From a virus, in IMG/VR virus record IMGVR_UViG_3300037189_012916, positions 1-34,907 of that record: DNA of 34,907 bases. One strand, given 5' to 3'. The notes under the pieces were generated by a model. The model was not told the origin of the DNA, made no database searches, and saw only the letters and a list, made by a program, of their open reading frames with translations. The translations under genes and the position numbers were made by a program. Shown piece after piece: positions 1,590-34,907 of this stretch (the stretch's first letter is position 1; each line of letters begins with the position of its first letter).

Positions 1590-4500
1590 TTATAAATCCT
1601 CTAAGGGGTCTCCGCTATCGTCAATAAATGGATCGTAATCAGTATCCAAAATAACATTATCCCCACCATAATAATATATATCTGGCAATTCAGCTTCTTT
1701 TTCACGTATAAAGCGGGCTTGATTAACACCACTAGTTATCAAAGATTCTGTTCCAGTCCATACGTATCCTTTTCTTTGTACCACGGTTATCTGAGTCCCG
1801 GAAGTAATATATTCTCCAATATTTAATGTCAATTCTTGTGTAGATGTGCTTACACTAAACTCGGGTTCTAGAATAATAATGCTGTTGGCTGTTGTATCAT
1901 AGGCCACAGTTTTATCATGCAATTCAACGTATGATTTTCGAAGCTGCCTCCCTCCATAGTAAACAGTAATTTGATCTATAGGATCTATTCCAGGAGTTAA
2001 AACAATTCCGTCACCTGTCGAAGTAGATGTTAATGTACTTATAGCATAAGTGGCTGTTTGTGCGGTATATATTCTTTGAACTAGATTATTTTCTACATAA
2101 GGAATCGATTGTTGAAGACTTTGATCTACTACTTTTGCTCCCGGTAAGCCCCTAAAGGCAGGTCCTGTGCCCAGTGTGCTTCTTCTAAGCTGACTAAGAC
2201 GGTTGCCTTCTTTGCTAAAAAATTCTATCCTTTCAGCATCGATAAAGACTACTCCGGGTTTATTTCTTGCAGGGTTAGGGGGAACTAGCTCAGTTGCATC
2301 TTGAACGTGAATTTCAGTATCTGTATAGAGCAGTTCTTGAGATAGCACTGTGCTATGATATTTCGATATCCGAGTATAATGAGTTTTCTCAAACATATCT
2401 TTAAAAATCCTAAACCCTAATATTTTTCCTCCAAATTCTGAAGTATCAATGGTAGTTACCATAACTTCGTCAGTCGGCCCCACAGTTATCCGATCATTAA
2501 TTTTTACAGTCTGCTTGTCATCTTGTATTAAGAAATCATAACGAGAAATCAAAGGTCGACCATTTAAACTTACCCATATATAATTGTCGTTCATCACAGG
2601 TCTACTCAAATGAAATTCTCGTAGAGCAGTTCCTTGAAATCTTTCTGTTCTCATCATCATATCGTTGTGATCAGTGAACGACAATATTTTTAGTTCTGCA
2701 TTAGCAATAGACGTAGTCAATTCTAGAGTATCATCTGTTATTAGATAATCATGATCAATAACAGCCATAATAGCTATAGCATCACCCACTGTTAATAGTC
2801 CTGCAGTTAATGTAATAACTCCGGTTGTAGAATTTATAGTATAATCGTAATTAAATCTTAATTTATACCCGTTTGCAAACACCTGAACATTACTGTCACT
2901 AAATGTTCCTGCCGGTCTTTGATTTTTATTATCTATACTATAAGTTAGTGTCGATCCGTTAAATCTATAATAACTAACCCACGGAGGGGATAACCGCTGC
3001 CTAATGCCGCCGCTGTCCACTTCAACAATTACTTGGGCACTAAGTGGTTCAAGTACTCCGGGCTTTTTAGATAAAACAAATGTACTTTGTGTTGCGGTCA
3101 CTGAAAACCGTTCTTCACTAATTCTGTTAAAGTTAGTGTATATTGATTCAAAGAACCAGGCTTCAACTGTATGATCACCTTGGGGCATATTATATACACG
3201 AACACAAGCACGTTGATTCCTAGGTCCAACTGCTTCAAATATATATCCATATTCAGTAGTTGTATTAACTCTGTCAATCTCCTGACCGTCTACTAACACA
3301 TAGGCCAATCTAATATCAGAAATTTTTGATAGACTTTGAACCACCGCCCTGGTTTGATTTTCTACAAAGACAATACTACCATCAACACCCGGGTCACTGC
3401 CTACATTTAATAATGTATAGCCGCCTCGACCGGAATAGGATTGAGCAGGTATCGTGATCTGATTGCCCCGAATTAAATATTCTCCCCGAATTCCGTCTAA
3501 GATCCTGCCACCGATATGTAGCATAAATCCGCCAACTGCTTCCGGAATCTCCGATATAATAAAGGACGTTGTTACTCCTGCAACCACACTAAACGCCCCG
3601 TTGATCATTAATGCGTTAGTCGGTGATTGCTGTGTATAAACATTAACACTTAGAGAATCTAATACGTGTCCCGGAACTAATTCTTCCGGTGCATAACTAT
3701 CATTTTCAGATAGGAAAGCATCTCCCGAAATAATTAGATCTTCAGGAGCAACTCCTAACCCCCCTACAAAATTAGAGGCAGTATATGATCCGCCCTGAAT
3801 AATAGAATCTAGACTATTTTCATTACTATCATATTTCCAAAATTCTACTAGTGGATTTCCGTACAAATAAACATCAACAGTAGTAGATGACGATGTAGAA
3901 AGAATCGATACTCGAACTGCAGCGCGATCTGCTATTAAAGGATCAGTAATTAAAGAATATGTAGATGTAGAAGTCCCATTGACTAAAACTGATACTCTAG
4001 CAACATCATTAGACTTTGAAAATGTTTGTACTAAAACAGAACTAGTATTAGTTACAGTTGACCAAAAATATCCTAGTAACTCGTTCTGTACATTTATGGT
4101 TTCAAGTATTATTGCGACTCTTATAGATGCAGTAGTAGACGCAGCTCCTTGAATACTAGCAAGTGTGCCTGTAGAAATAACTTCTAATACATCGTTATTA
4201 TTAATCGAATTAACTGTGTATTTTCCGTTATATCCAAGTGTAGTCATACCAGAAACAAAAACAGTATCTCCTATTTTGATATCACCATAAAAATCAGTCT
4301 TTGTTTTTATTGTGATTGTCGAACCGGTCGATGTGCTGGTTGCTTTAGCATACTTAACTCCATAAGTAGGACAATCTAATCCAATTACTCCAGTTAATGT
4401 GTTGATAGATGTAATTGCGGTATCTGTTCGTACACGCAATGTCGAAGAATTAAGTACATTTATAATTTGCCCGACCGATAGTCCTTCAGTATTATCTAGA

Positions 4501-7500
4501 GTTATAGTCGTAGACTCAATTGTAGCGGTATTGACTATTTTAGATTTAGCATAATAATTAATTAAATCATCCCAGGGAGTTGTATCATAGTTAACTCCAG
4601 AACTCCAAGGAACAGAATAGCTTAACGGTAGTCCCTGAATAATCCTTCCCGGATATTCGGCACCGGTCATTAAGAGAGGTAATTCTTTTCCAGGCATTAT
4701 ATCAGAGGGGAAATAGAATTTGTCTATTCTATCTACTGCGGTATACAAACTTATATGTTTATTATACTTAATTTTTAATATTTGTCCGGCAGTCGGGATC
4801 TTATTTAAGAATCTAAATCTTGAATATTGTTTTGAATACCCGTTATATTTTTCAAAATAATAATCAATAGTATAATCTGTAGCAAAAATTAATTTTCCGT
4901 CTAAGGTCGGAACTATTGTCTTTTTATCTGGAGAAACAGGCCAAGTTGTTACATAACTATCTCTATCACCAGTACAAACAAAAATATCCTGGGTAGCAGT
5001 ACTTCCGATTTCTGTATTAACCCCAACCCTGTCAAATTTAACCCCTAGAATATTTTTTCTTACCTGATTATTTTCTAGAGTCGCAACTAGTGTAGCAGTG
5101 GTCGAAACATAGGGTCCGCCGCCCGAAATAGTCACAATAGGAGCCTGTGTATAACCACTACCAGACTCGGTCACTATAACTTTGAAAACTTTTCCGTCTT
5201 TTATATATGCTTCGGCACTTGCCCCTGTTCCAGTATCTCCTGTCGATGTCGTTATTGTTACAACCGGTTTTTGAGTATATCCTTTTCCAGGATTAGCAAT
5301 TAAAATCGAACCTATTTCATACTTATAATTGTCTGCCCAATCTTTCCAAGGTTGATTAACTAATATAGAATCCCCTAAATTAACAACATCAACTGTTTGC
5401 GTAGCACTATTATAGTAAGGCGGTAAATCAAAATCAGTTGTGTATACGTTCGAAAGATCACCGCCCGAATCTGGGTAACTATAACTAGAAATATAATTAC
5501 GAATTTTAGTTCGATAAGGTTTTACCTCTTTAATATAGTCTTCAATATACTTGTCATTATCTAATTTATAAATTGGACGCTGGTTTAAATTTCCTACCTT
5601 GTTATAAACATTAATATACGAAGTTTTAAACGCCCAATCTAAAAGCTTCTGTTCGACTAATGCTGATCTTACTGCTTTAAAGAAGAATAAATTCCAATTT
5701 ACTTTAAGATCTTTAATGAAGATATCATTCTTAATGGCATAAAGTATTTTAGACAATTCAATATCAGGTGCCTGATCAAACCAAGTTTCATCTAGAGTAA
5801 CATTGTCATATGAGAAACTGGACTTAGGATAATTCCAGATGTTATCTAAAATTTTAATAGTCCCTTTTTCATTATAAAGAATGTTATAACCTAAACTAAA
5901 ATCTCCCTGACTATCTACTCTTTCTAAAATAATATATCTTCCGTCACCGGAATTCTTTATCTTTAAGTATGCTCCTACCGGAACATCTTCTAGTAAAGGC
6001 ATACTACCAAAATCCGATAATACAAAATCAAAATCTTTGAAGGAGTTGTAATTAGAGCTTATCCAGTCTATATATTCCCAATATAAAGTGGTATTATATG
6101 ATTGAGTTTGTATCTTAGCCCAGTTATCTACTGAATAAGTGTAAATGTATTTCGACCACTTTCCAGGATAATCTTGATCAGATCTTACAATAACTGCGTG
6201 AGGCCTGACCGTTAAGATAGGAGCAGTAACAAAACTCGAACCGGAATTTTTTATTGTAGTACTAACAACTCTGCCCAAGGTGTCAATTTCTACTTCAACC
6301 GCTGCGGCGGTATCACCCGAAATAGTCACTTTTGGTGGTAATGTATAACCATATCCCGGATTGGTAATATTAATTCCTTGAATTTTTCCATTATTAACAA
6401 AACATTCCAATTGTGCTTGAACAAGGGTTATAGTTTCGATTTCATTTAAAGAATCAATACTTTCAACTATGATATCATATTCTCTTGAATCTTCAGAAGG
6501 AATTTCTTCTTGACTTTCAAAATTAGTTAGATCGTAATTCCCCCTAATCTGATTTTTTTCTAAAACTCCATTTACAAAATCAACAAGATTACGCAGAACA
6601 TCTAATCTATTTTTAAACAACGTTTGTTGAGGTCTAATTGATATGCCATATCTATTTCTATCAGTTAAGGAGGGGTTTGGTACTAAGTTGCCCAGAGAAT
6701 CGTGACCTAATAAACTATCTATTAATTTCTTTTCAAGAAGAGTACTAGGAATACTGTAGGGATCTCCCTCCTCTAATAATAACCATTCGGTATGGCGAGG
6801 AACATCAATAGAAGAAGTATCAAGTGCTATGTTAGCATTTATTTTATCTGAGATTAACTGAGGTTGAACATTAGAGAAAGCAACTGCATCGGCAGACAAT
6901 ATCGAAGCATATTTTATTCCGTTAGCAGTAGGATCGGCAATTATACTCGATACCTGATATGAGCTAATTCTTCTGTTTGCAACATTCGGAACAATGACCT
7001 TGTTTTTAACCCAATAATAATAAACATTCTCAAAACCTCCGGTAGAACTGTTGTATACCTGTTTCACCGAAAGCACAGTATTATCTGGATATTTAGGCTG
7101 ACCGCTTATACCGTCAGTTAATCCTATTGTAGTATCGGCCTGAGCAGCCCACTCACTGGGCAACAAATCAGATTTAACCCATTCATAAACATCTATAGTC
7201 GATCCTGGGAATAACTTGCCCCAATTATTTTTCCTATAGATTTCGTCTCCTTGTTCATACCAGACGTATTTTGCAGAACTTAAATCCCACCATAATTCGC
7301 CAACGTGATCATCAATCCAACTTACCTGATCATCAACAATCACTCCGCCAATTCCAATTGTATAAACTGCCGGATCAGAAACAACTCGATAGGTTAATTC
7401 TTGTTCTGCTACGCCTGCTAGCTTTCCTTTTACAGGATCAATAACATCCAAGTAGTCTGTTATTTCTTCCTTTACAGAATCAATTAATGCTACTCGTGTT

Positions 7501-10500
7501 ACAATGCCAGGATCAGTTAAAGGTTCCTGTTCTCTTAACAATTGCCAACTTATTAGGTCAGTGTTTATTTTCTTAAATTGATATAATCTAGAATTATTAT
7601 CAGTAGTAACGGTTAATTGATTAAGGACATTGCTATCTTGATCCACTAATGCGGCAGTAGGAGTCTCTAAATATCCATATCCCGGAGTTATTACTGTAAA
7701 TCCACTAACAGTTTTTGTTTCGTCTGTAATCTCACTGTATAAAATTTCAACCGTAGGTTCTGCTCCCGGTGATAATATAGGAGCAGAAAAATCTACAGAA
7801 ATAGTCGCAGTAACATTCACTGTTACTGTTCCAGTTCCGGTCAATCGAAGAAACTTAACTCCTACTGGGATAAAGGACGGAGAACCTACAAATATATTAT
7901 TATTTACAATAGAAACTGCAGTACCATACCTGCTGCCTCTGAGAATATCGGCATCGTTTAATTCTTCTGCCTGTATAAAATATTCATCTAGTAAATTATA
8001 GACATACGCTGCCCCGGAATCAGGAACTGGGTCTACGAATCTAGTAGTTTTTTGATCAAAAGTAGTTTCGCCATTTTTCCCATTAGAGTCAAAAGTTAAA
8101 AACTGTGATCTATTTGTTCCTAATGAGGAAATTGCAAGAGTTGTTTCATCTTCGCTAATTGCTATTGCGTGACCAAATTTTAAATCAGAATTTACCAATG
8201 GATTTTCAATCAATTGCTTATAGGTAAAAATTCCAGTTCCGGTGTTTACATAAACCGCTGCCTTGCCCCTCGATTCTTCTGCAAATCGAACTTCTTTTGA
8301 AGATGCAATTAGATATTTTCCAGTAGACGAAACAACAACATCATCCCCAAATTGATCTGTAGTACCAAACGGAGAAATTATTGTTTGTTTCCAATTTAGA
8401 GCTCCATCATAAATCTGTAGTATTCCTGTGGCTGTAGAAAGATTATGCCCTGGAGCACTAATAGCAATTACATCTCCGGTTTTACTTCCAGAAATTTTAT
8501 GACCCCACTTACTGCTATAGGTGAGAGATATCGACGATGTTGTTCCTAATGTTATACCTCGAGGATGAGCAGAAATTAAAATTGTCGAGGTGTTAGTTTG
8601 GGTATTAACATTATAAGCGTAAACTGATCCAGTGGCCGAACTGGGATATGTAGCAGGTGATCCTACAAGTAACAGTGTAGGTTGGTTTGCGGCGACTTGA
8701 TTAATGTAAATAGAATGCCCAAATCTAGCGTAATTTGCCGAGTACGGATTCGCTATAACTGCCTGAGTATTTTCTTCATTAAATCGAATATTCCTAGAGC
8801 TAATCTTAACTAATCCGTCTGAAATATAATAACGAATATTTCCAGAGCCAGTACTTAATGCAACTGCACCTGAAGTGTTTGCTGCTCGAACAAAACTAGA
8901 CTCAGGGGCGCCGGAAAAATACAATTTCTTACCAACATCGTAAGCTAAAGAATAACCAAATTGAGTAGATGTATTATTGGCACAATATCTTATCAGGCCG
9001 GTATTAAGAGTATATTCATATTGTTTTTCAATATTGTCACCGTCCTTATCATATACCCAGACTTTACCGTAGCTCGGAGCTCCAGTTTGATACCAATCAT
9101 AGGCTGAGGTTAAAAGAACAGAACTATCATTAGTAGAATAGATTGCGTGTCCTAATTTTTGACCAGGCGTGCGTTGACTGGAAGAAATCTCTAGTGCAGT
9201 ATTATAATTTTTTACCTTTTCGTATACTTGCCATTTATTACCTACACCAGAATCTATCCAAACTTTTTCTGTATTAAACAACCTAAATAAATTCTTTTGT
9301 TGAGAAAAAACATTTAAATTCTCATATCGAACAGGTTCAAATTTAAACAATGCACCATAGTAGAGAAGATCATCATCTTCGAGACCAGAAAGATCACTGG
9401 CTACTACGAATTGATTTGCTTTAAGAATTTTTATAACCCGGTAAATTCCATTTACCTGATCATTAAATCTTATAATAGAAACAATATCTCCAATTGCAAG
9501 CTGATGGTGATAATTCGTAACAAATGCTAACTCTTCTCCCGGAACATTAATGAATACACCGGTAACACGCGGAGTTTGTAAAGTATATCGATAAACTGTC
9601 CAATCTCCGTTTTCTAAAAATCCCAACCAAAACGTATCCCCTTCGTTTATTAAATTATTGTTTGCGATGTCAAGGATACTATTTTTATTATATGCCGTTG
9701 CTGTCACATCCTCTCTACGAACATATCCTGCCGTAGTTAGTTCTATATTATTGTCGTCAAAGACTCCGTCGACTGTCTTAAAGGTCGAGGTTGACGAATA
9801 TCGAGCAGGCGTTATCTGTAGTGCATCTGCTTCTACATAATTAATTAAAGGATTTTGTTCCGAAGGCAGAACATCTACAAATTTTACTATATATGGATTT
9901 TCTAAAAATCCAGCTTCTTGTAGTTTAAATTCTATTTCATTATAAGTTTCATAACCGCCATAATGACCCACTCGAAATGCCCACGATTCGTTTATCTCTA
10001 CATCACCTTGATTATTGTATTTGTTGGCTTTTGCTAGTTTATCAATAGAATTTTTAGTGCCTTTCTCTTTAATATATCCTCTATAAAATTTGTATCTTGC
10101 GGTTGGGGTAACAAAAATATTACGCAAAAATTCTCTTTCACTATACCCAATTAGGTGTTGTGCCAATTTTTGTTGTTCGTAATCGAAATTGTCAATATCT
10201 AAACTATAAAAATCTTCAAACTGACCAATCTTATAATCAAAATTGGGCAAAAGATCAGACTGCGGTTTTTCAGTTAACTTGACCCATTTGTTATAGTCAA
10301 ACGTCGAGTTGCTTCTTATTTCTTCATTTGCCTGATAATAAAATCCATTATATCTAACAACATCGCCGGGAGCATAACTTACAAATTGTTTCCAGTCAGA
10401 AATTGAAATATTATCATAAACAAATCCGGGACTGAAAAAATCTCCATCCCAATTTTTAGTTCTAAATCCAGAAAGACGTAATCTTCGTTGTTTATAACCA

Positions 10501-13500
10501 GTTTCTATATCATATATAGTATCATTGAAAACTGTTTCATTATTAAACACCATCGCATGTTCTTTTTGAATCAGATTCAATGAAGCAAAAAATATTCCTT
10601 CTTCAGTTTCGTAAGTTGAGATAGTAAAAGTTCCACTATCTCTATTAACGTCAAATTTATCTACAGGGAACGCTCTGCCGTCTGCCTTTAATAAAGAATA
10701 TTCGTATTTTTTAGAAGTAAGACTGTCTACAACCGAATCTTGAAATTTCATTTTTAAAAGATCCGCAAACGGAGATAATGTTATTAAATTATTGTTTGCC
10801 CAATTTTGTGTAGTCCAGTATAAAAATTCTTTTCCGGAGAATTTCCAGTTTATAACATCTCCAAGATCATTTTGAAACTGATCGAAAATAAACCCTTGGC
10901 TTTCTAACCAATTTCCATAACCGAGTATAAGATCAAATACTTCTTGTTCGGTTGAAAATACTGTTCCGTATGGAATCAAGGTTTCTGTCAATTCATATCT
11001 AGCTGGTAATTGAACTGTTACTCCACCGGTTATAGGCAATGAAGGTAAACCTTCAAATAGATCAGGATCGAAGATTGCCTGAAGATTGTGACCGACCTTT
11101 ACTCTATAAAATTTTCCATTATATTTTACAATTTGTCCTTGCTTGTAATAACGAGTAGTAGTCGAGTTCCCGCCAATTACAGTATCAGTTGTTGAACTTG
11201 TCCAATCGGTATAACTAGCAGAAATTCCTCCTACAGTTATTGCACCAGATACTAAAGTTTTAATAGGTTTAAAAATTGTAAAATAAGGATAGGTATTATC
11301 ATATCCCTTTACAACATATTGACCGTTGGTCTTCTGTACAATAATTCCGGAAATTCTCGATGACTTAATAGGATTGCTTACATTAAGTAACAAAGAATAA
11401 TCTTCAGGGGGAAGGTATGCACCAGGTCCGGTAGAAGTAGGATCGATCGAATCAATAATTATTTGTAGCTTTTCTTTGTTAGTGAACCCTCCTAATTTAT
11501 GAAATAGATTGTAGTTTACATAATCTAGATCTTGCCTTAAGATAGAAATATAATTCAAATCTTTAGTCATGCCAACTTCTTGGACAAAAACTCCAAACCC
11601 AGATATACTTCCACTATCCGAGGTAACAAGATTTTTAGGATTTAAATAAATTCCAGAATCAGAATAAACAATTTGTCCCGAAGGATTAAAACTTATTCTG
11701 CTGAGATCAAACAATTTACTTGTATAGTTTGTAGGATCTAATAGAGCAGCAGCAGCATTGATCACAAAAGGCCAGTAACTGCTATTTCTCCAAGAGGTTT
11801 CAGCAGGACTGCAATCTCCAAAAATCCAATTAGACTTTTGGTCATTGTATGCAATCGGCCCTATCATAAAATTGACAGGGGAAACTAAATTCCCGTTTTG
11901 ATCAACAGGCAACACTGTGGACAGCCCTGGTCGAGCATAAGCATCTTTATATGTATTAGTTCCGTCTCTTATAAAACCATTTTCTATATCCGACCACATA
12001 ACGGTATTGGTTGAACTGTAATTTGTCCCATACTCACTGTTCCACCAAACAGGTTTTGAAGATAAACCCAACATCTCCCAGGGGCGAACATTGGGCTGAT
12101 CGGTGTCATAAAAATATCGATAAAAATTCTTCCAATATCCAGAAGTAGGATTTTCAAAAAGAATATCTGTACCTCCTTTATAATTCCAGGTAAAGCTATT
12201 CCCCTCATCGTAACTGTTATTAGTAGTTACATCAATATTATAATTACCGGCCCATTTTATAAAATCTTTTTGTATAATATTGTTAACGTCTGATATGTCA
12301 TACTTGTTTGTTCGAAATGCGCCAGGTAAAACTAATCCTATATCAAAGATATTTGGATTGTATGTTGTCTTAATATTGTTAAAAATTCGTTTTTCAAATT
12401 CTAAAATTATGTTATCTCGATAATCATCATATGCCCTAATAACGCTTCCATCATGGCACCGAATCATTGATACTGTGTTTTCAATATAAGAATTATCTAG
12501 ATAAATTTCTGGTTGATATTTAGGAAATAAACCTACTTTTGAAGGAGTAGGAGGTACAAAGGATCCTAATGTATCAATATATCTAACAATCTTGATTTTA
12601 TCCCCAAACGCCAGCTCTTGAGAGAAAATAATACTAGAATTTAACAAATTAAATTCGTATTCTTTACCTACGGTTACCTGTTCATTGTTTAGGTAAATTA
12701 AAACTGACACTGTACTTAAAGTCGAAAGATCAAAATCTATTCCAATTGGGTACTCAGTTATTGTAGTATCATCAACTGTGAATTCAGTTACAACTTTATT
12801 TTTTCCATAGCCCAACATATCCGATGAATAATATGGGGATTGTAAATTTTTTGACTTATTAATCTCTAATAAAATTTGATCAAGAGCATCTGCAGGGCTA
12901 ATGTCTCCTTCTACAGTACTAGTTAATCTAATTAAATTAGATTTAAATTGATTGTAATGATCAGCAACTTTTCTAATAGCATCTACTACATTATGTTCTT
13001 TCTTGCCTAGAAAAGTTTGAGCAAACGAAATAGGATTCTTACTGATAATTAATCGACGACCGTTTTCTTGATAATTATCCAGATCTCTTAAATTACTAGA
13101 GCCGGGAAATTGCCCTTCTAAGGCCGTAAACCCTTCTAACATCGAAGATAAATGATCGCTCATCTCAGAAAGAGTTATTTCAGAAATTGGTCCATTTAAC
13201 GGATTATTTGTAAGACTTAAAGGAGTTTCATAAGACCCATTAGCATTAGGTATTTGATCAGTAAAAATTTTAAGAACAACAGTATCATTCTTAGATAATA
13301 AAGAATCATATGAGACTGTTATATACTCGGAAGATTGAGTTAATGTACAAGGTACTTTTTTATTGTTTACATAGCTAACTAAATTTGTTACGGTTGAAAA
13401 CGGTTTGTCCAGGCAAGTTACAACAATTAAATCAGTTTCATTTTCTAATATCTGAAGCTCAACAACAGGAATTTGATATTCAGAACCCTCTCTCCATATG

Positions 13501-15062
13501 TTAGAGAATGAATCTTGATTTCCGTTTATTCTTAAAAAAGTAGTCCCAGTCGGTACAGAATAAGATACATTATTTTCAGTTACTAAAATAGTATCAGCAG
13601 CAAAGTAATTCTTAAACAAATAACTGCCTGTTCCGACACTATTTTGATATTTTAGAGGAAATCCTAAAACTTTGTCCTTAACACCCTGACCCACCGAGTA
13701 CCCAAAAAGTTGATTTCCATAAAAATTTGTTTGATAGTAATCCCTATCACTATAACTATTACCGCTACCATCAAATAAATCAAATAAAGGAGGTTGATTT
13801 ATTGAAGTATGTGTCTGGGCTTGGGTCCAGACTCTTAATGAACTATTATAATACCAACTAGATCCCGAATTTACTTCCCCATAATTTATAGGAGCTACAT
13901 CCAAATTATCAGGAGTCTGATCTTCTACTAAATTGACAATAGGTGGATCAACTGATAGATCATAATGTACCCTATAAATTTTACTGCGAACATCATCACT
14001 GACATCAACGTTGAAAATTACTCGATGGCCTTCTTCAATTAAAATTCCGTCAATATAATAACCATAGGATCCTTGTATTTTAGAAAAAGCATCTTGAGTG
14101 ACAGTATCTATAAGATCAATATTTTTAATACCCCTTTTTCCAAAATTATATAATTGGATATTTGGTTTAAATTCTATAATTGGTCTAAGAGCTCTTAGAT
14201 TAGACGGATAATAAGGAACAAGTTTGTTTATTTCTGCCGCAACCTTTATAATCTCAACATGAAACCATCTATTATATCTAGACCAAGGATTTAAATCAAG
14301 ACTCGATTTATTAATGGTTATATATTCAGGTATTAAAGGTAATTTTTTATCGTTGTCAAATGGATATGTATCAAAATTTGTACTGTCAAATCTTTCATCA
14401 AAAATCGAAACTATCTGTTCATATGGCTGTAACGAAGCAAAATCTACTAAAGAGATAGCTGTGCCTACTCCCTCAACAATAAAAATTTTATTGTTATAAG
14501 AAGCTGGAAGGACATCATTAGAAAATGTTAAAACCATCCCATTGCTTAGATAATATCCATTCGGCATTAGATATTCCGATTGGCCGACAATTTCGTCTTC
14601 TACATCTAACAATGGCTGATTAATTAAAATCGGAGGAGGTCCTTCGGGCAACCAATAATATTGATCATAGTTAACAAACTTGTCCCAATCAATTAAAGGA
14701 TCGAAGGAATAAAATTTTGTTCTAAACAGTCGATCGAGATTTTTATTATTCCCACCCTGTACTTTTATCTCATTAATAATGTCGTCATAACCAATAACGT
14801 CTTGTATTTGACTTTGCTTATCTCTAAATACCAGGGCGGGCTCTAAGGGGTATTGTTGCCTAACAGTATTGTTATCAGTGATGTAAAAATCTCGTTCCGA
14901 ATCATATGTTGGTGTTATTTTAGATCCTACATATCCATCAATACGTTCTAACTGCGGAGCCTGAATTAATTGATCAAGTGTGCTGGATAGAAATTTAGAA
15001 TTCTTATCTGTTCTAAAATACTCAGGTAAAAGGTTAATAGATTTTTTATCTTTATCGGCCAT
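1590..15062 (-). CDS. Giant baseplate/tail structural protein with beta-propeller (VrlC-like N-terminus)
   Basis: About 4490 residues. I choose ATG at 15062 ([16 protein letters not shown]), one base after the gp6 stop (TAATATG), rather than the in-frame GTG at 15074. The N-terminus ([25 protein letters not shown]) resembles large structural proteins called VrlC-like that follow gp6 in T4-type cyanophages; this is from memory, not a search. Residues about 1300-1325 and 1554-1580 hold two Y..G..V.YNG.FY.. stretches like CBM5/12 modules. Residues about 1960-2400 hold seven FG-GAP-like repeats (LGHAI, FGYSL, FGHSI, WGHKI, FGDDV, FGHAI, YGTAV), consistent with a seven-bladed propeller. Four or five G-x-GY...P.V.I motifs occur near 2450, 2895, 2940, 3255 and 3300. 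No membrane segment or catalytic motif was recognised. Role inferred: peripheral baseplate or fibre-anchoring component with adhesive domains. The reading frame is intact throughout. Confidence 0.8.
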
Positions 15063-15063
15063 A

Positions 15064-18000
15064 TTAGGTTCCACTACTTGTTACAATTTCTGATTCGGCC
15101 TTGAGCTGTAATGCTGTGATAGCATCAATAATCTCTATGTCTCCGAATGTTGTTCCGTTGATAAAAAGTTCATAAGACTCACACGACACTTCATACAAAC
15201 TTCCAAAGGCCGAATCTGATACTGGGACGATTACAAAATTTGTTATATCCGGAGTAAGTCGGTTCATAACATATGCAGACAACTCACTAAAATAAAAACT
15301 TTGACCAAACTCCCAATTTTCCAAGGAAAAGAAATCCTCAATAGCAGAATATATCCTTGTTTTTAAATCATTATCAGTAACAGTTAAATTTAAATTCCTT
15401 ACCGCTTTAAATTTTGCCTGAAGAGTTGTATCTGCTTTAGGTCCAAACAATAGTTTATACTTTACCGGATGAAATACCATTTCGTCGCTGATAGATTTTT
15501 TAGGTTCCAACACTGATCGATAATTTTCTTCTAGGGTCTGACTGGTAGGAACTGGTGGTTCTTCTTGACTATTTCCTATTATCCAACTTCTAAAATCATT
15601 ATCGTATGCTGTAGTTAATACATAGATATCTATTATATTTGATTTACTTGGGTCAATTCTTTTCTCATCTCCACTATTATGAACATAATGAAATTTAAGA
15701 TTGGACCTACCACTTTTTCCGATGTATTGATCAGTGTAAATTAGTGATGCTGTAGTTGTGGACCAATATTTAACAGCATCTATAGATTCACTATAGAAGT
15801 AGTATAAAGTTCCGTTAGGAATATTGTTTTTATCAAGAGAATTAAATTCAGCATCGCCATATAAAGGATTGATTTCTTGATCTGATAATATAAAAGTCGA
15901 ATCAGTTTGTTTTTCAAAATAAACAAAATCTGAACCTACAATCATTTCAAAAGAATCAAGGTCATCAATTTGTCCTGTTTTATCGTTTTCATAATAACTT
16001 ATATAAACTTTTTTAGGATCTTGATATCCATCTATTTCAATCACAGGCCTATCAATTTGCCAAGAATAATCAACCCTAAGATTGTCAGAACTATCTGACT
16101 TAGGATTTACCGATAATACATCAATCTTATCTTTTATTACAGAAGCAGACGTATAATCATAATTTTTAGATGTAGAATCTAGATAAAAACCTGTTTCGCT
16201 CTCACTTTGAAAAACATAATCAAGCAATCGATATTTTACCTGATATTTCTTTCCAGTCCAATTAAAGGATATTAACCAACTGGCATCTAAACCTAAAGAT
16301 TCGTCGTTGCCCTGATTGGCCAAAGAGAATGAGGATACTGTATCTAAATTAGAATTTAAAATAATATCCCATTCTCTAGTGTTATTATTAATAGTAAGAC
16401 CAAAATTGCTCAAGGTCATACAAATATTTGCTATTTCGTTTTCGAGAGAAAAATTTAAAATCTTCGAATATCTTGGAATTACTTCGGTGGGTCTAGCCCC
16501 TTGAGGAACCCTAACCGCAAAAATAACAGGACCAGTCCCGTCAGGTAATGGCCCAGTGCCGTCTCCTATTCCGTCAGCAATTATATTCTTTACTGTTGCC
16601 CAAATATAATCTTTACCTCCGGTAGGAATCCCAGATGCCGGTATAGTTTTTAAATTGTTTTTAGGGTCAAAATATTTTCCAGTAGGCGGAATAAATTTCA
16701 CAAACGATCCATTAATTAAGTACTTTAGATTTGTCTGAGAGTACTCACCGACCGCAACTGCGCCGCGGGGTCCGCTAAAATATCCTCTACTTTCGCCGGG
16801 CAACTTGTTAACTTCATTCCAGACAACAGTAAGTGCGTTTACTGAAAATCTCGAATATCTTTCAAGATAGAAATTCTGCAGGGCGGGTGAATTTACAATA
16901 GGAGCCAGTGTATTTTTTATAACTCCAATAACTTGATTTCTATTAGTGAATTCAAATTCAAAATTCTGTTCCGAGGGATTCTTAAACAAAATTCCATCAG
17001 TGGCAAATATACTTGTCTTACTATATTTGCCAGTTATATCAGATAGATCAAAATACTTACTCAACCCACTTGATGTTCTATTGATACTTTTTACTTTGAG
17101 TATATCCGTGCCTGCAGTTAATGGGAAAATATTATAGTCTTCCCCAGTAATCATCCTATCTTGAGTATAGTATACCTGCGGTGCTTTCTGTTGTATACTG
17201 CTGTTAGATTCTGATCCCGAACTATTGTTCACGATATATTGTAAAGACAGAGTTAAATTTAGTGTGTGAGTTTGTCCAGAACTGTTTTGATACGGAACTG
17301 AAATAATAATTCCACTCATCTGCTCCGGCCGGATTATATAGCTAGCGCCGTTACTCTGCCTATAAAATAGTCTAAATTCTCCCTTAGGTAAATCACCAAA
17401 AACACCATCGGCAAAATTTAAATCTATTTGATCGTTATCTCTTGTAGAAACAGCATACACCGTTCTTAAATCTTTGTTTAGACTATTATAAATTACATTA
17501 GAACCTGCAGAAACAGAATCGACCTTGGTCCATAGAGTACTGTAATTTCCGTTTTTATCCAACTGCCACAACCAAACATCTGTATTATTAATATCCTGAA
17601 TATTAACACCGATAATTTCATTAGGCACAGGATTGTCAAGAGAAAAGCTCGATAGGCCGACCGTTCCTTGTCTAAAATGTGTAAAGAATCCTGTATTAAT
17701 GCTACCCGATCCTTGATTATCATTTTTATAAATTAAACTAAAAGAACCTAACGGCTGCGGTGGTACTTCATAAACATAACTTTTTCCAGAAAATGTACAG
17801 GGAACTACTTCAAAATTTATAAATGACCCGTTTATTGTTCTATTAAAATTAAAAATAGACACATCAGGATTGACATTATTAATAGTATATTGTTCAGTAG
17901 AAATACCACTTATAACTGCCCTGTCATCAGGCGTGCCGAAAGCAGATCTAAATGAAGAATTAACAATACTGATGAATTGTTGATACCACTCTGGGTTTGT

Positions 18001-30704: not shown

Positions 30705-31310
30705 ATGAAAATTACTGAACTGCTGATAGAAAATTCTCAAATAGATGAATTAGATCTTAACAGGATTGGTCAAGCTCTGGGTACAGGAGCTAAAAAGGTG
30801 GCTAATGTAGCAGGAGCAGTAACGGGTGGTCTTAGAGGATTAGGAACATCGTTTAAACAGGGGTACGATGCAGGTAAGGCCTACACAAGCGGAACTTCAA
30901 CTGCTAATCCTGCTGGTGCTTCGACTAGCGCAGCCTCAACACAGACTGTTTCTGCACCAGCAGGAACTAGTTCAACGCCTGGAGCGCCGACACCGCCTAG
31001 ATCAAGTGCTCCTGCTGCTAACAACCCTCCCCCTACACAACCGCAGGCTAGCACAGCTCCAGTTCCAGGGCAGGAAATCGAAATGCCCGGAACCAATCTT
31101 AAATTTAAATATGATGCAGACTGGAAGGATTCTGCAGGAAATCCTGCCGATCCTGCTATACAGAAAGTATTACAGCAATTGGCCAGTGGTGTCGATAAAG
31201 CATCAATTCCTCGAGCAGATCTAAATGCTGCTAGACGCAGTTTAGGATTACCTGCATTTGAAAGCAAAACTGTAGGATTTAACAGCAAATTCCTAGGTAC
31301 AACAATCTAA
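30705..31310 (+). CDS. Late virion-type protein with internal-head-protein-like N-terminus
   Basis: 201 residues, family not recognised. Three parts: an N-terminal segment, a Gly/Ala helix region (VANVAGAVTGGLRGLGTSFK, about 32-51) and an Ala/Pro/Ser/Thr linker (about 62-120), then a small C-terminal domain (MPGTNLKFKYDADWKD, IQKVLQQLASGVDKASIPRA). The start MKITELLIEN resembles the T4 internal-protein capsid targeting sequence MKTYQEFIAEA, which prohead protease gp21 cuts after Glu; LIE before N fits the L/I-x-E pattern. Driven by the perfect late promoter upstream, with AAGG 10 nt before the ATG. A packaged head protein is a hypothesis; any late structural protein is possible. Its stop overlaps the stop of the convergent frameshift ORF. 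Confidence 0.7.
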   Translation: MKITELLIENSQIDELDLNRIGQALGTGAKKVANVAGAVTGGLRGLGTSFKQGYDAGKAYTSGTSTANPAGASTSAASTQTVSAPAGTSSTPGAPTPPRSSAPAANNPPPTQPQASTAPVPGQEIEMPGTNLKFKYDADWKDSAGNPADPAIQKVLQQLASGVDKASIPRADLNAARRSLGLPAFESKTVGFNSKFLGTTI

Positions 31311-31537
31311 AAGAAACTAAGACCGGTTTTTTTAGTAGTTTCTAAATTTGATTGTATAATTTCACCTATTATTGTTCGATCCTCGGGTGTTAACAAGAAA
31401 GATTCATTAAGTGTTAGACCTCCGCGCATATACCAGCATAGTCTAAACAGTTCTTCCTTGATGGCTTTTGTATCTTTTTCGTATTCTGATACCAGCTTGT
31501 CAATACCTTCGCTGTCGAGATACAAAAGCCTTATACG
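31307..31537 (-). CDS. Frameshift-extension ORF of the gp26-like assembly protein
   Basis: An open frame with no convincing start of its own: the first possible codon is TTG at 31525 and no ribosome-binding site precedes it. It is in the -1 frame of the gp26-like gene and stays open back through the slippery heptamer. After slippage, 76 residues would be added, beginning CGT-ATA-AGG (R-I-R) and continuing LLYLDSEGIDKLVSEYEKDT. The segment LFRLCWYMRGGLTLNES and LTPEDRTIIGEIIQSNLETT-KKTGLSFF resembles small proteins found beside gp26-like genes in aquatic T4-type phages, which argues for a real protein. Probably expressed as a 365-residue fusion, like lambda gpGT. Confidence 0.75.
   Translation of the reverse strand, partial: RIRLLYLDSEGIDKLVSEYEKDTKAIKEELFRLCWYMRGGLTLNESFLLTPEDRTIIGEIIQSNLETTKKTGLSFF
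31312..31343 (-). terminator. Hairpin at the convergent gene ends
   Basis: AGAAACTA/TAGTTTCT pair over 8 bp (31312-31319/31336-31343). On the minus strand the stem is followed by TTTA at the stop of the frameshift ORF, giving a weak terminator; on the plus strand it lies just after the stop at 31310. It could end transcription from both sides. Confidence 0.35.
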
Positions 31538-31543
31538 AAAAAA
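31463..31543 (-). promoter_or_regulatory. -1 programmed ribosomal frameshift signal
   Basis: On the minus strand the gp26-like frame reads GCA ACT TTT TTC GTA TAA. The heptamer T TTT TTC (31543-31537) fits X XXY YYZ. Six bases later begins a perfect 13-bp stem: GGCTTTTGTATCT (31530-31518) with AGATACAAAAGCC (31475-31463). The loop is 42 nt, within which CAGC/GCTG (31514-31511/31496-31493) could pair. Heptamer, spacer and stem are as expected for a -1 site. The zero-frame stop TAA (31533-31531) lies between heptamer and stem. Confidence 0.85.
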
Positions 31544-32403
31544 GTTGCAGGATCAAACATCAAAGGCACTTCGATTGTGTCTTTATCATACCCTTGTTCC
31601 TTCATATCCTGTGTTGCAGGAACTACTAAGGGTTTAATTGCATTAACTTCTCTAAGCTCATCGAGATGATTTTGCATTTTGTTGAAAATGTCTTTGTCTA
31701 CGTTTTCGACAAATTCCTTAATATGTGATCTATCTTCGGTACTGCCTGCACTAGAATCTATTCGAAATATACTAGACTCTACTACTCCTATAGTTACCTC
31801 GGTTAACTTTTTAAAACTATCTTTGAAAGTTTTAATCTTATCCTCATCGGACATTTCGCCGTCGTTGGCTATCTGTATAATTCGTTGCGTTTCGAACGTT
31901 TTAATTGCGCTATCGCTAATTTGTTTATAGTTAAGAGGCTTTACATAGACAGTAAGATCATTGTTGATGCTGATAATCGGATTCCAGGTGATTTGATTCT
32001 GTAGGGTATCCATTACAATTCTTAGATCAACTTCGTAGTCTAGCTCTCCACTTTCTCCCAGCTTTATTGGAGTGGTCATCTTTTCTCCATAGGTAGCTAG
32101 TCTAATGGCAATCAAGATCACATCAATATCTATACTGGGCACTTGCCAGGCGTTTTTAATGTTTGGCATACAGTGCTGTATAACATCAACTACTGCCTGA
32201 CCGCTGAGTACAGCATCCGGGACCTTGAGCATTAGTTCGTCCTTTGCGGTCATTGAATATACTGGATATTCACCAGTTTCGCTGATGTCTAAACTACCTG
32301 CGGGCCAATAATTTCCTTGGCTAGGCAATTTAATATAGATTTTGGGTTGCCTCATAAATGAAGCTAGTGGATTATTCTGTAGGGGAAGGCCGTTTACTAC
32401 CAT
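31531..32403 (-). CDS. 26: gp26-like baseplate hub / tail assembly protein
   Basis: 290 residues from ATG 32403, chosen over the far-upstream Met at 32466 because GGAG precedes it by 8 nt and the family-like sequence starts at NPLASFMRQPKIYIKLPSQG. The pattern (YIKLPSQGNYWPAG, YSMTAKDELMLKVPDAVLSG, CMPNIKNAWQVPSIDIDVIL, IAIRLATYGEKM) matches gp26-like base plate proteins of T4-type aquatic phages. As I recall, many relatives carry two Cys pairs (zinc-like); neither is present, since the corresponding places read GESGELDYEV and DTIEVPLMF. The C-terminus PATFFV is encoded by the slippery site. Together with the extension it resembles G/GT tail chaperones. It is divergent from the tape measure gene, whose product such a chaperone would bind. 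Confidence 0.75.
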   Translation of the reverse strand: MVVNGLPLQNNPLASFMRQPKIYIKLPSQGNYWPAGSLDISETGEYPVYSMTAKDELMLKVPDAVLSGQAVVDVIQHCMPNIKNAWQVPSIDIDVILIAIRLATYGEKMTTPIKLGESGELDYEVDLRIVMDTLQNQITWNPIISINNDLTVYVKPLNYKQISDSAIKTFETQRIIQIANDGEMSDEDKIKTFKDSFKKLTEVTIGVVESSIFRIDSSAGSTEDRSHIKEFVENVDKDIFNKMQNHLDELREVNAIKPLVVPATQDMKEQGYDKDTIEVPLMFDPATFFV

Positions 32404-32415
32404 ATTTTTAACTCC

Positions 32416-32475: not shown

Positions 32476-34907
32476 ATGGCAGAAGTCACAGGATCAATAG
32501 GTAACGAACCAGTAGAACTGAATAATGCGGCTACAGAGGCTACGTTAAAACTACTGCTGCAGGCTACCTTATCGGCAAACAGGCAAACACTCGAGAGTGT
32601 TAGGAACATTGCTCAAAACAGCGGATTAAACGCAGAAACAGTAGCAGCAGCAAATGAAAATCTTAGCAGACTTGCATCGGGTACTACAAAAACAGGAGCT
32701 TCGTTAGGTGCAGTAGGTGTAGTTGCCGATCAAGTAAAAGCTGGACTTTCTAAGGTAGCAGATGTAACCAAAGAAATTACATCTGGTACTGGCAATGTAA
32801 GCGGTGTTTTTGATATCTTTGCTAAACTACCGGGAGTTTTAGGCGCAGTATTTTCTGGTATGCAAAAGTTAGCTGCATATCAAGAAAATTTATTACAGAC
32901 TTATCAAAGCATTACTCGCGTAGGAGCTAACTTCGGGGGCAGCCTAACGCAAATGAGACAGGCTGCCGCCGATACCTTTATGACATTAGATGAATTTCGA
33001 GATGTTATATCGCAGAGTGGTGAAATTTTTGCCAAAATGGGTGGTACTGTAAATCAAGGAGCTACTTCGTTCAGGCAATTAAGTAAGGAATTATTGGGCA
33101 GTGAAATTGGTCGAGATCTTAGAGCTCTTGGAATGACCACTAAAGAAATTAACGAAGGGATGCTCTCGTATATTTCTGTTACTGGAGGCAGGACTAAGAA
33201 AGAATTAGAAAATACTGAATTAATAACAAAAGCCACTGGTGAATATTTTACAGAGTTAGACAAGCTAACGCAGTTTAGTGGAAGAAGTAGAAAACAACAA
33301 GAAGAAGATCAAAAAAAAGCTGCTGCTAATGCAGCCTATCAACAGGCACTGTCGCGCATGACAGAAGAACAGAAGGCTAGGGCAGAAATAGGTAGACAGG
33401 CTGCTGCAAATTCTGGTATAGCTGGCGCGCAAGAAGCCTTCATGTCTAGGATTGCAGGGTTACCACCAATAACTGAGGATGCTAGACAATTTACAGGGAT
33501 TTATTCTCAAGCCGCACAGGGAATAAATCAGATGGCAGATCAGGCATTAAGTGCAACCGGCACAATGAAAGGTGTCGAGTCTGGATTTGGAATGTTTAAT
33601 GCAGGAGTAAAAAGGCAAACCGATAGTCTAGGGCTCACTGCAACTGCACTAGCAATGCAAGGTAATCGAATCGTTAATGGTGCTACTTTATATTCGATTC
33701 AGTTAGAAAAGAAGGGAGCAGATACTGCAGAGGGCACTGCAAAAATAATGAATGATATTGCTGCACAGCAAGCAACACAAAAAAAATCCGAAGCTGCACA
33801 GGCTGTTGAAACTCAAATAGCAATGCAGAAATTAGGTCAAGAACTCTTGACTAAACTGTTGCCTATAGTATCTGCCCTCTGGAATGTAATGAATCCTCTT
33901 GTAACTGCAGTTACCAGTGTGCTAAATGCAATGCTCAAAATTCCTTATTTGTTTGAGATATTAGGAGCTTCGTTAGCAGCAGCAGTTTTAGCATTGGCAG
34001 TTGTTAGAACTCGAGCAGCAGTAGCAGCAGTTGGATCAATGTTTGGAGGCGGCGTGCCTCCAGGCGGATCTCCGGGCGGCCGAGGCGGCCCGCCGGTCGG
34101 CGGTGGTGGGCCTCCGGGGGGTGCTGGTAGAGCAGCAGGAGCAGCAGGCGGTGCTGGTAGAGCAGCAGGAGGTGCTTTAGGAGGGATTGGGGCTGGACTC
34201 GGCAGTGGAGTAGGCGCAGCATTAACTGGACTATCTACCGGATTAATATCATTAGCTAATCCGAGGGCAATGTTGGGAACTGTAACTTTAGGATTATTAT
34301 CTGGAAGTTTACTGATCTCTGCAAAAGCGTTTAAAGAATTTACAGGAGTAAGCTGGAAAGATGTAGGAATAGCAACATTAGCAATTACTGGACTTGCAGC
34401 AGGCGCTGCTGCCCTATCCTTTATAGCTCCTGCAATACTCATCGGTTCTGCAGCGTTAGGTGCCCTCGGCGGCGCAATATGGCTTTTAGCCAAAGGACTT
34501 AAAGAATTCCCTACTGATGTCTTTCCTAGTATAAATGTATCTTTTGGAGCTTTGGGGGATATAGTTAGTGATGTATTTGGTGCTATAGATTCTGTGATAT
34601 CTTCGACATTGACAGTTATTAAATCTACCTTTGGATTTGTCTGGAATGTAATATCATGGCCATTTAAACAATTAGGATCTGTAGTGACTACTTCCTTTGA
34701 TGCAGTAAGTGGATTAGTTACAGGACTATACAATGGAATTAAATCTACCTTTGGATTTGTTTGGGATGTTATATCTTATCCGTTTAAGCAACTAGGTAGT
34801 TTGGTTAATGGCGCCTTTGATGCAGTTACAGGCCTAGTTACAGGTCTGTATAACGGAATTAAAACTACTTTTGGATTTGTTTGGGATGTTATATCTTATC
34901 CGTTTAA
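32476..34907 (+). CDS. Tail tape measure protein, 3' end beyond window
   Basis: At least 810 residues, open to the right edge. It starts MAEVTGSIGNEPVELNNAAT. Residues 15-330 are mostly helical and Ala/Gln-rich, typical of tape measure proteins. Hydrophobic stretches at about 486-508 (IPYLFEILGASLAAAVLALA) and 634-672 could insert into the host membrane. A Gly/Pro/Ala linker spans about 522-565. From about residue 716 a 40-residue repeat begins (STFGFVWNVISWPFKQLGS, then FDAVSGLVTGLYNGIK), still running at the edge. Function inferred: sets tail length and is ejected ahead of DNA. It is unlike T4 gp29 (590 residues) in length and repeats. No strong ribosome-binding site precedes the ATG. It is divergent from its probable chaperone. 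Confidence 0.85.
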   Translation, partial: MAEVTGSIGNEPVELNNAATEATLKLLLQATLSANRQTLESVRNIAQNSGLNAETVAAANENLSRLASGTTKTGASLGAVGVVADQVKAGLSKVADVTKEITSGTGNVSGVFDIFAKLPGVLGAVFSGMQKLAAYQENLLQTYQSITRVGANFGGSLTQMRQAAADTFMTLDEFRDVISQSGEIFAKMGGTVNQGATSFRQLSKELLGSEIGRDLRALGMTTKEINEGMLSYISVTGGRTKKELENTELITKATGEYFTELDKLTQFSGRSRKQQEEDQKKAAANAAYQQALSRMTEEQKARAEIGRQAAANSGIAGAQEAFMSRIAGLPPITEDARQFTGIYSQAAQGINQMADQALSATGTMKGVESGFGMFNAGVKRQTDSLGLTATALAMQGNRIVNGATLYSIQLEKKGADTAEGTAKIMNDIAAQQATQKKSEAAQAVETQIAMQKLGQELLTKLLPIVSALWNVMNPLVTAVTSVLNAMLKIPYLFEILGASLAAAVLALAVVRTRAAVAAVGSMFGGGVPPGGSPGGRGGPPVGGGGPPGGAGRAAGAAGGAGRAAGGALGGIGAGLGSGVGAALTGLSTGLISLANPRAMLGTVTLGLLSGSLLISAKAFKEFTGVSWKDVGIATLAITGLAAGAAALSFIAPAILIGSAALGALGGAIWLLAKGLKEFPTDVFPSINVSFGALGDIVSDVFGAIDSVISSTLTVIKSTFGFVWNVISWPFKQLGSVVTTSFDAVSGLVTGLYNGIKSTFGFVWDVISYPFKQLGSLVNGAFDAVTGLVTGLYNGIKTTFGFVWDVISYPF
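34621..34907 (+). repeat. Tandem 120-nt (40-residue) repeats in tape measure gene
   Basis: Units start at 34621, 34741 and 34861, exactly 120 nt apart, each beginning AAA(T/A)CTAC(C/T)TTTGGATTTG. The third is cut by the window edge. Units two and three are closer to each other than to the first. Confidence 0.9.

Follow-up and report, generated by a model that had tools for sequence, protein, structure and literature searches.

A conserved candidate -1 frameshift at a gp26-like locus points to a one-gene tail assembly chaperone pair in T4-related phages

The 34,907-nucleotide (nt) stretch IMGVR_UViG_3300037189_012916 (the window, meaning the whole stretch of DNA that was analyzed) belongs to a T4-related phage and carries on its minus strand a gp26-like gene. 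Sequence comparison indicates that this locus very probably undergoes a conserved programmed -1 frameshift, and the resulting short and long proteins are likely to form a T4-type tail assembly chaperone (TAC) pair serving the divergent tape measure gene. The case is built on the observed anatomy of the locus, its conservation, a covarying RNA stem, purifying selection on the extension, and a one-gene/two-gene dichotomy with T4. From these we infer slippage and its ratio, a chaperone function for the products, and a role for the extension, and we envisage two proteins made from one gene in the fashion of lambda gpG/gpGT. The majority of ribosomes would terminate at position 31531 and release a 290-amino-acid (aa) gp26-like protein. 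A minority, pausing at the stem with UUU in the P site and UUC in the A site, would move one base backward on U_UUU_UUC and read on in the -1 frame, producing a fusion of approximately 365 aa. Given the homology to T4 gp26/gp51 and the adjacency of the tape measure gene, the short form would serve as a coat for the tape measure protein, and the long form, made less often, would connect this complex to tail tube assembly through an additional small and mostly helical domain at its C terminus. The elements of the locus are as follows.

32412..32415, minus strand: GGAG, a Shine-Dalgarno-like motif 8 nt 5' of the gp26-like ATG (sequence)
31531..32403, minus strand: gp26-like short form, 290 aa, proposed TAC-N (PF12322 / phrog_150)
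31537..31543, minus strand: slippery heptamer T_TTT_TTC, in a zero-frame phase that suits a -1 slip (sequence and relatives)
31531..31536, minus strand: spacer of 6 nt from heptamer to stem
31531..31533, minus strand: TAA that ends the short form in the zero frame, located after the heptamer and before the stem
31310..31537, minus strand: -1 frame extension of 76 codons (RIRLLYLD...LSFF), proposed TAC-C domain, starting with CGT at 31537 and followed by the stop TAG at 31309-31307
31518..31530, minus strand: 5' arm of the proposed stimulatory stem, 13 bp, GGCUUUUGUAUCU (fold, covariation, and synonymous-codon null)
31463..31475, minus strand: 3' arm of the proposed stimulatory stem, AGAUACAAAAGCC (fold and covariation)

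A sequence-only reading of the window had placed the heptamer, the 6-nt spacer, the 13-bp stem, the 76-codon -1 frame, and the stop of the short product at these positions, and all of them hold on re-reading. The short form matches PF12322 in the Pfam scan (E value, 1.3e-7; 32.0 bits against a curated cutoff of 24.5) and phrog_150, a baseplate hub family, in the PHROG scan (E value, 1.5e-12), while the -1 open reading frame (ORF) has no significant family in either scan. The gp26-like gene ends in GCA ACT TTT TTC GTA TAA, and a join after Phe289 yields the predicted fusion. As had been claimed, the small ORF lacks a start of its own: neither a Shine-Dalgarno-like motif nor a usual start codon is found at its head in the window sequence, its first TTG falls within the stem, and its first ATG is extension codon 37. 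A common T run next to a fortuitous ORF could look similar by chance, and TTTTTTC is indeed common in this AT-rich window (12 observed versus 18.6 expected). Its frequency alone is not discriminating, and the case for a frameshift therefore depends on conservation. Chance does not account for how the heptamer is conserved and phased in relatives, for the covariation of the stem, or for the conserved coding in the -1 frame; every conservation and covariation result speaks against coincidence, which we regard as already refuted here.

The close relatives, which we refer to as the window clade, comprise 80 IMG/VR loci (L001 to L080) with 61 to 73% protein identity to the short form. TTTTTTCG occupies the corresponding position in all 80, and each has an open -1 frame whose length differs by no more than one codon. 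Most change in the extension occurs at third codon positions, and the median ratio of nonsynonymous to synonymous polymorphism (pN/pS) is 0.46 in the -1 frame, versus 0.89 and 1.44 in the remaining two. The extension is thus under codon-wise purifying selection. Across this clade the C terminus of the extension is an invariant Phe-Phe, mostly within LPFF (window positions 31310-31315).

The distant set consists of 18 named jumbo phages with approximately 21 to 32% identity (Phosso, Atu_ph07, Serratia BF, RaK2, Cassandra, PA5oct, CBB, GAP32, Munch, 121Q, Vibrio 2.275, SCTP-2, XaC1, XbC2, Kaldavass, Hallingskeid, XacN1, and RAS14, the last reached solely via RaK2). An in-phase heptamer at the Phe-Phe and an open -1 frame are present in 18 of 18; the heptamer is T_TTT_TTC in 16 and T_TTT_TTT in XacN1 and RAS14. 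None of the records examined annotates a joined coding sequence (CDS), and the extension is left unannotated, started at an internal ATG, or entered as a separate hypothetical protein. The same layout occurs in one Kyanoviridae cyanophage and in Aeromonas phage phiAS5, as well as in all 83 readable cyanophage and Aeromonas IMG/VR loci (82 with T_TTT_TTC and one with T_TTT_TTT; one further locus from this search ends before the slip site and is not counted). Among the readable relatives of the Kyanoviridae cyanophage, 79 of 79 have both the heptamer and an open -1 frame. The match of the uncultured phage LR756511 was too weak for interpretation.

The codons around the slip site support the proposal that the Phe-Phe is kept because it encodes the slippery sequence. 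In all 146 distinct genes the site reads NNT TTT TT(C/T). The first Phe codon does not vary, and the second is mostly TTC (143 genes, with TTT in the other 3); the codon preceding the Phe-Phe is ACT, AGT, GCT, GAT, AAT, TCT, CAT, CGT, or TAT, specifying Thr, Ser, Ala, Asp, Asn, His, Arg, or Tyr yet invariably ending in T. Slippage along the T6 run could also be transcriptional, with the -1 frame created by the polymerase and not by the ribosome, in keeping with the presence of a homopolymer and with the T_TTT_TTT of XacN1, RAS14, and locus L155. Six Ts are fewer than polymerase slippage normally needs, however, the run never exceeds seven, 143 of the 146 genes retain the C at position 7, and the covarying stem lies at a constant distance, leaving this explanation with a very small probability.

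The window stem pairs perfectly over 13 bp around a 42-nt loop (fold z score, -2.7). In a gapless alignment of 54 distinct window-clade sequences, 95% of the cells of this helix are paired, with double changes at 6 of the 13 pairs. Its covariation score is 0.176, compared to 0.071 for shuffled alignments (0 of 500) and 0.025 to 0.063 for slid versions of the helix, and RNAalifold recovers the inner ten pairs unaided. Compared with synonymous recodings of the -1 frame, the minimum free energy gives a z score of -4.3 in the window and a mean of -4.55 in the clade, with 55 of 55 sequences below -1. The stem is far stronger than its synonymous recodings, and therefore the encoded protein does not force it, in agreement with the earlier reading. 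The cyanophages give a mean z score of -2.8 by the same comparison, and many of them possess a compact 11-bp hairpin with a short loop, unlike the 42-nt loop of the window. The 42-nt loop makes a terminator role of the stem unlikely, as does the absence of a T tail, and scans for promoters and terminators gave no useful information.

The same alignment bears on whether the downstream ORF is instead a separate small gene, translated unfused by termination-reinitiation at the stop. An ATGA overlap at the stop does occur in 5 of the 54 sequences, the downstream ORF of Phosso is annotated as a separate CDS, and gp26 of Pseudomonas phage Cygsa01 is without a slippery heptamer and has a TAATG overlapping its stop. 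In the other 49 sequences, however, the codon that overlaps the stop is ATA, CTA, TTA, or GTA, and a Shine-Dalgarno-like motif is present in 0 of 54. The TTG in the stem has become TTA in 5 sequences, 4 of which carry a matching change that preserves the base pair. Reinitiation also gives no role to the invariant in-phase heptamer or to the NNT wobble, and we consider it improbable for the window clade, if less so than slippage of the polymerase. In Cygsa01, the ORF that starts at the TAATG (L098:1795-1982) carries the annotation baseplate hub assembly catalyst (gp51-like), and the genome has one PF12322 gene; this lineage may have exchanged frameshifting for coupled translation. Overall, the conserved heptamer and -1 frame and the covarying stem support the -1 frameshift with a G/GT-like layout that had been proposed from the window alone.

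T4 itself shows a different arrangement. Its gp26 has neither a slippery heptamer nor a -1 extension, and the adjoining, divergently oriented gp51 consists of a PF12322 domain (residues 1 to 201; E value, 3.9e-52) and about 48 C-terminal residues, a segment that matches the profile of the cyanophage -1 ORF (hhalign 76%; P value, 2.3e-5). The earlier reading described T4 gp26 and gp51 as separate genes, and two genes they are, but with this domain makeup they look like a two-gene version of the same pair. Five core Straboviridae (T4, phiAS4, DLP3, E26, and SJ_PmiM) have two PF12322 genes each, and both an in-phase T-run heptamer and an extension frame are missing from all five of their gp26 genes; SJ_PmiM gp26 contains one in-phase AAATTTA with no open frame after it. 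Fifteen complete or almost complete genomes that have the frameshift layout contain a single PF12322 gene each, and SCTP-2 has the layout with a PF12322 score under the Pfam threshold. In these gene counts, the slip site and a second PF12322 gene are nearly mutually exclusive, and T4 makes its short and long forms from two genes where the frameshift-type phages apparently use one. We lean toward the view that the single-gene -1 frameshift is the widespread gp26/gp51 arrangement, spanning cyanophages, Aeromonas phages, and jumbo phages, and that T4 is a derived exception in which gene duplication took the place of the frameshift.

The assignment of the pair to tail assembly draws on gene context and on T4. 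The gp26-like gene adjoins a gene at

32476..34905, plus strand: tape-measure-like gene, divergent, extending past the window end (phrog_58; E value, 4.3e-8)

which supports the suggested identity of this neighbor. The frameshift could be real and its product nevertheless a component of the baseplate hub: database names say baseplate hub, and older genetics suggested that gp26 is in the T4 hub (PMC3004832). The same source, however, lists gp26 and gp51 as hub assembly chaperones and reports that gp51 is needed for assembly yet is not part of the particle. The tail assembly chaperones of T4-like phages were identified by Vladimirov, Gautam, and Davidson (Virology 2022, 566:9-15), as cited in PMC10885494. 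With the adjacent tape measure gene also pointing to a chaperone, a hub component is an unlikely alternative, though the likeliest of those considered here. We take the proteins of Vladimirov et al. to be gp26/gp51 from the title of that paper, the citations to it, and the domain makeup. The AlphaFold model of the short form (predicted local distance difference test [pLDDT], 84.6) matches T4-like baseplate hub assembly proteins among viral models in Foldseek; against the PDB, Foldseek returned nothing convincing and no match below an E value of 0.7. The model of the -1 ORF alone is poor and helical (pLDDT, 66; predicted template modeling score, 0.38).

Several results weigh against this account. 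The relatives are not independent, and naive product probabilities, which ignore relatedness, overstate the significance of their agreement and are not exact. The RaK2-like phages show no stem above chance within 84 nt (mean z score, -0.13), so that the nucleotide comparison of relatives that had been called for found the heptamer and -1 ORF widely kept but not the stem in this group. The stimulator therefore varies or is absent, and is not universal, while the heptamer stays; in G/GT-type frameshifted chaperone pairs, a downstream RNA stimulator is common and not obligatory. The loci that average no excess stem while having the heptamer and -1 ORF are L083-L084, L086, L089-L090, and L099-L103. 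In profile comparisons, the -1 ORF of the window clade matches neither the cyanophage -1 ORF nor T4 gp51 significantly (hhalign 2.5% with the C-terminal domain of the latter), and the agreement with these two is limited to position and a loose motif. Finally, the HK97 tail assembly chaperone 2ob9 superposes on the short-form model (VIA-align) over 98 of 107 residues with a root mean square deviation of 4.7 and a Z score of 5.9, a weak and suggestive match in the range that the tool describes as "possibly just a common arrangement."

Frameshifted tail chaperones are already a known kind. Like lambda gpG/gpGT and P2 E/E+E', the pair proposed here adjoins the tape measure gene, and the stop of the short form follows soon after the slip site. 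The protein family, in contrast, is PF12322 rather than theirs, the heptamer is U_UUU_UUC rather than the G_GGA_AAG of lambda, and the stem has a 42-nt loop, with the tape measure gene divergent instead of downstream on the same strand. T4 gp26 and gp51 share the Pfam family, with gp26 corresponding to the short form and gp51 to the long form, and gp26 keeps a Phe-Phe near its C-terminal end, but they are two divergent genes without a heptamer or -1 ORF. The Kyanoviridae and phiAS5-type gp26 genes carry the very same heptamer at the corresponding Phe-Phe, together with a -1 frame that stays open for about 60 codons; their gp26 is shorter (approximately 240 to 260 aa) and their extension differs in sequence. 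The TAC genes of Vandenendeviridae and Andersonviridae have a conserved -1 shift at a poly-T near the TAC-N end and a misannotated downstream ORF (PMC12846349), although these are other phage groups with a GTTTTT motif, and the likeness is one of layout.

Frameshift signals in T4-like phages have likewise been published. The earlier reading took a frameshift in gp26-like genes to be undescribed, which needs correcting: such signals in T4-like chaperone genes are reported by Vladimirov et al. 2022, as cited in PMC12846349 and PMC10885494, the former crediting that paper with poly-T frameshift signals in T4-like TAC-N genes and the latter noting that some T4-like phages have a short gene and a separate fused long gene without frameshifting. 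A 2016 review treats T4 as an exception to conserved tail-chaperone frameshifting (PMC5009743). In the literature searched, the jumbo-clade frameshift, the stem with its covariation, and the near mutual exclusion of a slip site and a second PF12322 gene are undescribed, and Vladimirov et al. 2022, represented there by its title and citations, may hold part of this.

Elsewhere in the window, a convergent Pro/Ala/Ser/Thr-rich ORF (30705-31310), which has no assigned family, overlaps the final bases of the -1 ORF with its end. One ORF of 4494 aa (1590-15074), very long for a structural protein, adjoins baseplate-like genes; the ORF next to it (731-1588) contains collagen-like GPTGPSG repeats, and a partial ORF at 1-729 appears subtilisin-like by eye (DGLIDPAHPEF and DHGCHVAGTVAGN).

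Collectively, the window and its relatives indicate that the wider T4-like group follows the chaperone-frameshift rule, and suggest how T4 came to depart from it, with a pair of PF12322 genes and without a slip site. Chaperone genes would then be misannotated in the records examined for jumbo phages and cyanophages, and the small ORFs labeled gp51 or hypothetical 3' of gp26 would be halves of a fusion. The covarying stem offers a directly testable element. If the single-gene arrangement is indeed the widespread one, the stimulatory RNA would have been remade or dropped next to a slip site that stayed in place.
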